This document shows positions 15,489-18,038 of a stretch of DNA of 64,000 nt, piece by piece. The translations under genes and the position numbers were made by a program. The stretch is from an uncultured Flavobacteriales bacterium (GTDB lineage Bacteria > Bacteroidota > Bacteroidia > Flavobacteriales_D > Sanyastnellaceae): NCBI GenBank assembly GCA_937881575.1, contig CALGEI010000042.1:124001-188000 (forward strand), read 5' to 3'. The stretch's first letter is position 1, and every line of letters starts with the position of its first letter. A model generated the notes under the pieces. The model saw only the letters and a list, made by a program, of their open reading frames with translations. It had not been told where the DNA came from and ran no database searches.

Positions 15489-17933
15489 TTAGTGTCCAAA
15501 TTTCTGCAACCCGTCATTCAAAAATGCAATGAAAGCCGTCGGGTCAGGATCGTATCCAGCGGAACCGCCAATTTGTTTGCCTTGGTGGTCGACCATCACA
15601 TAAAACGGCTGGGAATTCGTATTGAATTGAGCCGCCTGCAGGTAGGACCACTTGTTGCCAACGGATTTGATCTTGAAGGATTTCCCCCCGTAATCTTCCA
15701 CGCGTTGCTCGGATTCCGGGAGTTCCTTTCGTTCGTCTACATACAAGGAAACCAAGATGACTTCATCTCGAATGATTCTAGAAACTTCTGCATCCGGCCA
15801 GACCTGCTCCTCCATTTTACGGCAATTGACGCAAGCCCATCCTGTGAAATCCAACAAGACGGGTTTCCCAGTGGCTTGAGCCGCGGCAAGTCCTTGCTCG
15901 TAATCGGTGAATTGTGCCTCGATATGCCCAGAGGATTCCCCTCCTTCGCCATGACCTCCGCCGCCCCATTCACTATAGAACATCGGCGGTGGAAAGCCGC
16001 TGATCAACTTGACCGGTGCACCCCACAAACCGGGAATGAGATACAACCCGAGTGTAAAGAAGAGCATTCCGACACTGAATCGGAAAACGCCGATGCGTTC
16101 TGTCTTTGAATCGTGCGGAAACAGAATCCATCCAAACAGATAAAAAGCAATGGCGAGCGTGATGGCGATCCAAATGGCAATGAACAATTCACGTTGCAAG
16201 AGACCCAATTGCAGAACCAAGTCTGCGTTGGAGAGGAACTTGAAGGCAAATCCAATTTCCAACAAGCCGAGTACCACCTTGACACTGTTCAACCAACCGC
16301 CTGACTGGGGCAGAGAATTGAGCCAACCGGGGAAGGCACTGAATAACATGAACGGTATGGCGAGGGCCAAAGAAAACCCGAACATGACAGCAGAGGGAGC
16401 GGCATACGAGCCTGTGGCGGCACCGGCCAAAGCACTTCCGATGAGCGGACCCGTGCATGAAAACGAAACGATTGCCAATGTCGCTGCCATGAAAAAGATG
16501 CCCAACAAGCCGCCTTTGTCCGCGGCTTGGTCTGTCTTATTGGCCCAGCTGGCAGGCAATTGAATTTCAAAAGCTCCCAAAAAGCTAGCTCCGAAAATCA
16601 ACAGCAAGATGAAGAGGAAGACATTGAAGAACGGATCGGTTGAGATCACATTCAAAATATCGACTCCGAAAACGGCCGTCAAAAGCAATCCAAGTCCGGT
16701 GTAGATGAAGATGATAAAGAAGCCATAGATCAAAGCGTTCCGAATGCCTTCTGAGCGGGACTTGGACTGCTTGGTGAAGAAACTCACCGTCATGGGAATC
16801 ATCGGGAAAACGCAAGGAGTGAGGAGGGCTGCAAAGCCGAGCAACATGCCCAACAAAAAGACGCCCAACAACCCTTCTTCTTCGTTCTCATCATCGTCCG
16901 ATGATGCTCCGCCATCACATAAATGCTGGGATGGAGGGCAATAATCTGGACGGGATTCAACGCTGCGAGCATCTTGGGTGTTCACGACAAATTCCAAATC
17001 CGGAGGGAAAATGCACTTGGCGTCGTTGCATGTCATGAAGGTCACGAAACCGGTAATCTCGGCATCCTGTCCTCCAGTCAGGGTTTGCACCCAAAACACT
17101 TCTTCCTCGAAGAACGGCACATCCATATTGAATTGCGGGTCGAATGCCACATTGGGATCACATTCTTCAACACCACCTTGCAAATTCCAGCCTGCAGGCG
17201 CTTCTATGCTGAATGCCGTTGGCATCGGACCATCCAAGCTTTCGATGTCTTGGCTGTAAACATGCCAGCAAGGATCCACCGATGCATGGAACACCAATTC
17301 AAATTCGTTGGTGGCTGGCGTTTCATACAACGCAATGTCCCAAACGACAGGCTCGAGCATTTCCGATTCACCTTCTTGAAAATGGCCATCGCATAAATGC
17401 TTGAGCGGAGGACAATAATCAGGACGAGATGAAGCGGGCAAAAACTCACTCAAGGTGAACGTGAAGTCAATATCCTCCGGAGGCAAGCAGCGGGATTCAT
17501 CGCACACCATAAAACTGAGGTATCCCGAAATGGAGGCGTCCGAAGCCAAGTCTTGGGCTCGAATGGTCTGCACCCAATACACTTCTTCCTCAAAATATTT
17601 GAGGTCCATCATGAAGTTGGGGTCATACTCCACCAAAGGAGCGCATTCCGTTACAGCACCAACCTTCTCCACCCCGGCGGGAACTTCAAAATCAAATAAG
17701 GTGGGCAAAGGCCCATTGGGATCATCTAGAAATTGGCTGTAGATGTGCCAACACGGCTCGACGGAAGCATGGAACACGAGGTCGAATTCTCCAGCCGTAT
17801 CCGATTCGTACAACGTAAAATCCCAAGTGACAGGATCTAAAATTTGCCCGTTACTCGGGGTGATAAACCAACAGAAGCACAGCATCAAAAAGCCACGCAG
17901 CATACTGAAAGCGAGTTGTTTCATTTCTTTCAT
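15489..17933 (-). CDS. dsbD: DsbD-type thiol:disulfide interchange protein with duplicated N-terminal domain
   Basis: DsbD passes electrons from cytoplasmic thioredoxin across the inner membrane to periplasmic thiol proteins. Numbered from the ATG at 17933, this 814-residue protein has a signal peptide (to about 29), two tandem DsbD-alpha-like domains (about 31-165 and 192-325), an eight-helix DsbD-beta part (about 355-600) with TPCVFPMIPM and SCTGPLIGS cysteines, and a thioredoxin-like gamma domain with WACVNCRKME near 700. Both alpha copies keep their cysteine pair (CDESRCLPP and CNDAKCIFPP), and each is followed by the same linker PDYCPPxxHLCDG. A TATCTTCG promoter element at 17941-17948 overlaps the longest possible start, so the downstream ATG is preferred. 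Confidence 0.9.
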   Translation of the reverse strand: MKEMKQLAFSMLRGFLMLCFCWFITPSNGQILDPVTWDFTLYESDTAGEFDLVFHASVEPCWHIYSQFLDDPNGPLPTLFDFEVPAGVEKVGAVTECAPLVEYDPNFMMDLKYFEEEVYWVQTIRAQDLASDASISGYLSFMVCDESRCLPPEDIDFTFTLSEFLPASSRPDYCPPLKHLCDGHFQEGESEMLEPVVWDIALYETPATNEFELVFHASVDPCWHVYSQDIESLDGPMPTAFSIEAPAGWNLQGGVEECDPNVAFDPQFNMDVPFFEEEVFWVQTLTGGQDAEITGFVTFMTCNDAKCIFPPDLEFVVNTQDARSVESRPDYCPPSQHLCDGGASSDDDENEEEGLLGVFLLGMLLGFAALLTPCVFPMIPMTVSFFTKQSKSRSEGIRNALIYGFFIIFIYTGLGLLLTAVFGVDILNVISTDPFFNVFLFILLLIFGASFLGAFEIQLPASWANKTDQAADKGGLLGIFFMAATLAIVSFSCTGPLIGSALAGAATGSYAAPSAVMFGFSLALAIPFMLFSAFPGWLNSLPQSGGWLNSVKVVLGLLEIGFAFKFLSNADLVLQLGLLQRELFIAIWIAITLAIAFYLFGWILFPHDSKTERIGVFRFSVGMLFFTLGLYLIPGLWGAPVKLISGFPPPMFYSEWGGGGHGEGGESSGHIEAQFTDYEQGLAAAQATGKPVLLDFTGWACVNCRKMEEQVWPDAEVSRIIRDEVILVSLYVDERKELPESEQRVEDYGGKSFKIKSVGNKWSYLQAAQFNTNSQPFYVMVDHQGKQIGGSAGYDPDPTAFIAFLNDGLQKFGH
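16911..17843 (-). repeat. Tandem protein-domain duplication inside dsbD
   Basis: Two units, roughly 17843-17385 and 17360-16911, encode matching segments in the same order: a DPVTWD / EPVVWD strand, FHASVxPCWHxYSQ, FEEEVxWVQT, a Cys-x4-Cys-(x)-PP active site, and the linker SRPDYCPPxxHLCDG. The identity is high at motifs and low between, which suggests an old intragenic duplication. Confidence 0.8.
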
Positions 17934-17940
17934 CGTTTTG

Positions 17941-17948
17941 CGAAGATA
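17941..17948 (-). promoter_or_regulatory. -7/-10 promoter element of dsbD
   Basis: TATCTTCG on the minus strand ends seven bases before the ATG at 17933. With this spacing transcription would start about three bases before that ATG, or about twelve before the ATG at 17924. Confidence 0.45.
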
Positions 17949-18038
17949 ACGCATGCCATCCTGAAGAAAAGTGGCATCTGTTAATGTTCGTTCATGAACC
18001 CCGTTGAAGCGGTGTATTCAAAGGGCCGGTCACCGTCG

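Follow-up and report, generated by a model that had tools for sequence, protein, structure and literature searches.

Why would a DsbD carry two alpha domains? The expected features of DsbD, a membrane protein that exports reducing power from the cell for the repair of proteins, include eight transmembrane helices, a single alpha domain and electron transfer from thioredoxin to periplasmic partners, and textbook knowledge of the protein comes from one-alpha forms, in which that single domain serves every periplasmic partner. The question is raised by a gene in the window, a 64,000-nucleotide stretch of a contig from an uncultured Flavobacteriales bacterium, where a minus-strand open reading frame (15489..17954) is open for 821 amino acids and encodes a DsbD-type reductase. 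The original prediction had seen in it two complete tandem alpha domains, and Pfam indeed gives DsbD_N in two stretches. We report that the two-alpha DsbD is a real, conserved and recurrent variant of DsbD, and that the number of alphas varies and has been expanded repeatedly across the phylum, in which alphas are fused to DsbD, encoded as a separate secreted alpha upstream, or both.

Table 1. Features of the two-alpha dsbD-like gene, in positions of the window
Feature	Position	Strand	Details
dsbD-like gene	15489..17954	-	821 aa; order alpha1-alpha2-beta-gamma; from Pfam and reading of the open reading frame
Signal peptide region	17847..17954	-	residues ~1-36, with C26 and C28; judged by eye
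alpha1 (nDsbD) domain	17424..17846	-	residues 37-~177; Pfam DsbD_N; AF2 block with pLDDT >=90
alpha1 active-site pair C151-DESR-C156	17487..17504	-	alignment with E. coli DsbD C103/C109
Linker 1 PDYCPPLKHLCDG	17385..17423	-	carries C181 and C188; from sequence
alpha2 (nDsbD) domain	16950..17363	-	residues ~198-335; second Pfam DsbD_N stretch
alpha2 active-site pair C309-NDAK-C314	17013..17030	-	alignment with E. coli DsbD C103/C109
Linker 2 PDYCPPSQHLCDG	16911..16949	-	carries C339 and C346; from sequence
beta transmembrane domain	16035..16871	-	C381 and C500; Pfam DsbD_TM, residues 367-574
gamma thioredoxin-like domain	15492..15917	-	WAC708VNC711; Pfam Thioredoxin_7, residues 684-744

The protein runs from a signal region through alpha1, a two-cysteine linker, alpha2 and the repeated linker to the membrane domain and gamma (Table 1). 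The two alpha copies are 51% identical over ~140 residues with the linker repeated, and a profile of related alphas, the window's two included, scores copies 1 and 2 at 203 and 181 bits; a tandem this alike with an identical linker motif lies far beyond chance. Common to both copies are FHASV(E/D)PCWH(I/V)YSQ, the C-x4-C pair and then PDYCPPxxHLCDG. The shared motifs listed in the original prediction thus hold for the Cys pair, the FHASV core and the linker, while the PP lies one residue further in copy 2 (CIFPP versus CLPP). Its minimum of eight periplasmic cysteines is exceeded: the mature protein has twelve before the membrane part (68, 104, 151, 156, 181, 188, 229, 265, 309, 314, 339 and 346), C104 and C265 having gone unmentioned. 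NCBIfam NF001419, a DsbD subfamily model, gives the window protein 141.6 bits, below its curated cut-off of 330. The protein's own genome holds one match to the whole protein and two alpha domains. In the membrane domain, which AF2 predicts as helical over residues 362-644, C381 and C500 are invariant in the 67 rows of alignment A1, which joins the window protein to 66 of 69 references (L056, L069 and L128 left out) with both alphas above 60 bits. Alignment A2 holds the window and 69 of 70 references (L128 left out), and A3 the two window stretches with 29 of 32 others (L069 left out twice, and one L120 stretch).

Structure prediction, proposed earlier as a check, returned a DsbD-alpha fold for both alpha1 and alpha2. 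AF2 reached a pLDDT of 83.8 for residues 34-821 and of 92.3 for the alpha tandem, where a pTM of 0.55 means that each domain is confident and their relative placement is not. Against solved structures, alpha1 matched the E. coli DsbD alpha domain 1jpe (Z 11.8, 2.2 Å, 108 residues aligned); for alpha2 the match was 6dps_F, from Neisseria (Z 12.0, 2.7 Å, 114 aligned). A sequence search of solved structures with the tandem profile gave a single match, an integrin at E 0.99, which we take as chance. By alignment, C151/C156 and C309/C314 fall on C103/C109 of E. coli DsbD. In E. coli a cap loop that contains F70 covers the alpha pair, and the domain hands electrons on from gamma to DsbC, CcmG and DsbG (PMC7347389). 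F114 and F275 are likely the cap phenylalanines of alpha1 and alpha2, assigned by eye; the alignment is gapped at E. coli F70.

Conservation bears on whether both copies work. Both Cys pairs are invariant in the 67 doubles of A1, and in a wider, thinned set of non-degenerate doubles both active-site cysteines are present in 48/48 first (D1) and 48/48 second (D2) alphas, with the putative cap Phe in 48/48 and 46/48. Among 19 close doubles, the window's included, which we infer to belong to the window's genus, the two active-site cysteines and the cap Phe are found in all 19 D1 and all 19 D2. In these 19, mean pairwise identity falls from 0.85 in the membrane-gamma part to 0.71 in D1 and 0.60 in D2, so that both alphas evolve faster than the rest of the protein, and D1 is the better conserved copy in 161 of 171 pairs. 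NG86 w, tried on ten pairs, ranged over 0.04-0.14 for D1 (nine pairs with a value) and 0.05-0.16 for D2 (eight), pairs without a value being saturated and several dS exceeding 1; the membrane-gamma part was mostly lower (0.008-0.12). Both copies are under purifying selection. The earlier view that both look functional is supported by these counts, by the predicted folds and by selection. As for the possibility that one copy is changing fast or decaying, D2 is indeed the faster, which could mean a weaker role for it, yet its cysteines and cap Phe are kept in 19/19. On this comparison both alphas are retained, with D2 freer to change. Fixed differences between D1 and D2 in the close relatives lie beside the active site (CLPPED versus CIFPPD). 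Decay of one copy is thus rejected for the window's close relatives and is true of other lineages.

How widespread is a second alpha? When GTDB genome contigs were scanned with the tandem, 67 loci came up; the doubles among them range from close ones (86%) down to distant ones near 30%, Salibacter halophilus included, and single-alpha relatives were also present. Because these and the other fetched loci were chosen by similarity or by hand, frequencies are taken instead from the order-wide and phylum-wide searches that follow. An order-wide search with the alpha profile matched 192 of 199 genomes, and at least two alpha domains were present in 144 of those 192, fused, split and unlinked domains counted together. 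Within the window's genus two alphas occur in 15 of 16 genomes; the sixteenth, in which a contig end truncates dsbD, shows none. Of the other 50 genomes in the family, 21 have two alphas, 26 have one and three have none, and of the 133 in the order's other families, 88 have two, 17 have three, three have four, 22 have one and three have none. A genome with two alphas is thus the usual case in this order. This speaks against the double being unusual, and the objection foreseen in the original prediction, that the double form is simply the standard one, holds in part, although one-alpha orthologues do exist at the same locus. In a phylum-wide draw the profile matched 146 of 198 genomes; outside the order, by our count, at least two alphas occur in 33 of 143 matched genomes. 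The contrast with the order is inflated, because a profile built on members of the order overlooks some far alphas detected by Pfam (e.g. in family f28).

The second alpha takes several forms. Family f9 alone, sampled in 20 regions, includes 11 with a single-alpha dsbD and a separate alpha gene just upstream (L110, L121, L123, L124, L126, L129, L130, L137, L146, L154 and L155); of the other nine, seven have a second module that is degenerate, one is a single form on its own and one has separate alpha open reading frames and none on the membrane reading frame. In the eleven split pairs, the first Met of the dsbD frame lies -8 to +18 nt from the stop of the upstream gene, and two such pairs, G079 and G133, can be aligned to the window protein over almost its whole length, across one stop codon. 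Separate alphas adjoining dsbD also occur in other families (L211, L213, L214 and L215). In the split pairs the DsbD-attached alpha keeps the Cys pair in 11/11 and the cap Phe in 0/11; separate alphas, counted over a wider set of 15 than the split pairs, have the Cys pair in 15/15 and the cap Phe in 13/15. One-alpha DsbDs keep the cap Phe in 22/28 and miss it in 6/28. A degenerate second module was seen in ten sampled DsbDs (nine by score, L145 by eye), and both cysteines are kept in none of the nine that gave a second domain. L132-L136, L144, L128, L147 and L157 have a second alpha-like module without the Cys pair, and their long two-part N-terminus may recall that of ScsB. Distant doubles in other families keep both Cys pairs (L203 and L205-L210). 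Expansion goes further at L201 (1967-5469), with four alphas in a row, two as separate reading frames and then a fused pair on dsbD, and L202 has three in an array. The second separate frame of L201 and the first fused alpha are by eye very alike, as after a recent duplication. Two other loci have dsbD in pieces, through an assembly frameshift or a real split: L063, with the alphas and the start of the membrane part in one frame and the remainder in the next, and L120, with two alpha frames followed by the membrane part.

Did these forms descend from one duplication? On a tree of the membrane and gamma parts (151 rows thinned at 93% identity to 98, with a long-branch warning, and two rows without an alpha counted as single), the double/single state needs nine changes. 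For the domains themselves we kept 156 of 227, leaving out L116, L067, L108, cut domains, degenerate second modules and near-duplicates, and hand-picked 68 of the 156 for a domain tree and AU tests. The domain tree had been suggested as a way to date the duplication through separate clades of copies 1 and 2. The close relatives' D2 copies do form one clade (100/99), which makes the duplication an old and retained one among them, but neither all D1 (AU p 2.5e-70) nor all D2 (p 0.0007) can be held as one clade. One ancient duplication for all doubles is thus rejected; barring gene conversion between the copies that wiped out the trace, the fused form has more than one origin. The close relatives and the g11-like group have D1, D2 and single alphas that cluster together, apart from the tree's other doubles (100/98); a joint D2 clade of these two groups is not rejected (p 0.087), and their D2 copies may share one event.

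Neighbours of the window's dsbD, named by eye, are gmhA, a yhhQ-like gene and tilS, and at least one of gmhA, yhhQ-like, tilS and pabB stands beside dsbD in 58 of the 67 loci, in double and single lineages alike; the nine loci without such neighbours are seven distant doubles and two singles. The shared neighbours imply that most lineages gained or lost alphas without a move of the gene. One-alpha orthologues occupy the same locus, and we therefore read the two-alpha protein as a variant of DsbD. One locus, L030, on a contig titled Chryseobacterium gleum (a MAG), has a one-alpha dsbD in the window's clade with the same neighbours and is probably misbinned.

The remaining cysteines call for an account of their own. 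The original prediction saw the linker cysteines as possibly adding redox capacity; they go instead with other extra cysteines as pairs, and this paired occurrence makes an extra relay less likely than structural disulfides. We propose with moderate confidence that the extra cysteines form structural disulfides that would clamp each linker to its own alpha, C68-C188 and C104-C181 in the first copy and C229-C346 and C265-C339 in the second, pairings suggested by co-occurrence over few independent events. In the 149 of 156 domains that could be parsed, the position-68 Cys always accompanies the second linker Cys: once three misread domains are corrected, 31 domains have both and 118 have neither. 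For the position-104-type Cys and the first linker Cys, 42 domains have both, 98 have neither and nine have one without the other. This co-occurrence is mostly shared ancestry. Among four independent pairs for Cys-68 and the second linker Cys, three change the same way, none the opposite way and one shows no difference (p 0.25, in a test that predates the re-reading of L041, L047 and L052); for Cys-104 and the first linker Cys the partner differs in none of five independent pairs, which gives no support. By a looser count, a linker Cys stands without either proposed partner in 28 of 138 parsed domains (31 of 169 unparsed), and many of those 28 have a different Cys just before the membrane. A lone Cys near the first membrane helix, often before GE or GG and with no partner Cys in the same alpha, occurs in many distant doubles (L051, L054, L055, L058, L109, L112 and others). 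The position-68-type Cys is missing from D2 in one of the 19 close relatives. In the AF2 model the first linker is ordered up to C181 (block pLDDT 91), whereas the block that holds C188 reaches only 52.

How might electrons travel through such a protein? By analogy with E. coli DsbD, cytoplasmic thioredoxin would reduce the membrane domain (C381/C500) and this in turn gamma (C708/C711), which could pass electrons to either redox-competent alpha (C151/C156 or C309/C314) and so to periplasmic thiol partners; the two alphas would be delivery heads in parallel and not in series. We prefer parallel heads because both alphas look complete and capped. The whole account, a DsbD-type reductase with parallel alpha heads, linker-clamping disulfides and alpha number as a repeatedly expanded module, is one that we consider probable, if some way from assured.

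A second head may have a clientele of its own. According to the original prediction, the two alphas would serve two partner sets, for example cytochrome c maturation and another substrate, and the divergence of the copies, with fixed differences beside the active site, would suit such a division, as would the two Cytochrom_C_asm and 12 Redoxin matches in the protein's own genome. However, neither copy is tied to any partner, and Redoxin matches number 9-13 in ten double and 8-18 in eleven single genomes, hand-picked from the same family. We regard two partner sets as possible but doubtful. More redox partners in double-alpha genomes is an idea that we reject, the Redoxin-family counts of the ten and the eleven being alike. 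No VKOR match was found in the window's own genome.

The two alphas may also act one after the other, electrons passing from gamma to the membrane-near alpha2, then to alpha1 and on to the partners, so that the second copy extends the reach. The low pTM leaves parallel and serial transfer indistinguishable in the model. The split form, in which the attached alphas have lost the cap Phe that most separate ones keep, looks as if the two did different jobs, and D1 and D2 differ at fixed sites among the close relatives, with D1 the more conserved. Against this, both caps keep their Phe in all 19 close relatives, the window protein among them, the same Phe is missing from some one-alpha DsbDs too, and we know of no alpha-to-alpha electron transfer in any characterised DsbD. 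A serial relay thus seems unlikely to us. Mere dosage or drift, in which the tandem arose neutrally and one of its copies is heading to loss or to a non-redox spacer, would explain the degenerate second modules and the faster D2 but sits badly with intact Cys pairs and caps and purifying selection on both copies in the close relatives, and we consider it improbable.

Beyond the parallel-head account, we offer tentatively, and with more doubt than conviction, a broader picture in which DsbD in this order is a modular hub: a second redox alpha would have been selected, would have evolved repeatedly and would be kept fused or as a neighbouring gene, its roles split between a gamma-facing alpha, uncapped where the two alphas are separate, and a capped distributor, maybe a free periplasmic shuttle. 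The order-wide pattern of alpha number matters more than the window protein alone. A large bacterial group in which two to four alphas occur, either fused or free, while orthologues with one alpha share the locus, amounts to a natural experiment on why one distributor does or does not suffice, and a free alpha would be an unusual periplasmic electron carrier. The architecture is not described in the titles and abstract openings of the open-licence literature searched, and may be in print elsewhere.

Set beside known systems, the window protein shares with E. coli and Neisseria DsbD the alpha-beta-gamma order, the C103/C109-type pair and fold of alpha, the membrane domain and a CxxC gamma; E. 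coli DsbD differs in having one alpha against the window's two, and Gly and Pro where the window has C68 and C104. The gamma domain is 44% identical to Bacteroides fragilis 3f9u_A (Z 24.3), an entry that comprises the C-terminal domain only. ScsB of Proteus mirabilis (6c29) is reminiscent in its long N-terminal periplasmic region, 247 residues in the crystal, of which only residues 11-147 matched, to alpha1 (Z 13.1) and alpha2 (Z 13.6) alike; ScsB genes neighbour the scs partners ScsC/ScsD. The separate DsbD_N proteins encoded upstream of dsbD (e.g. at L123) have the same Pfam DsbD_N alpha in the order of the fused form and differ in carrying their own N-terminal signal-like region, seen by eye, and their own stop codon; such a protein is probably a free periplasmic alpha.
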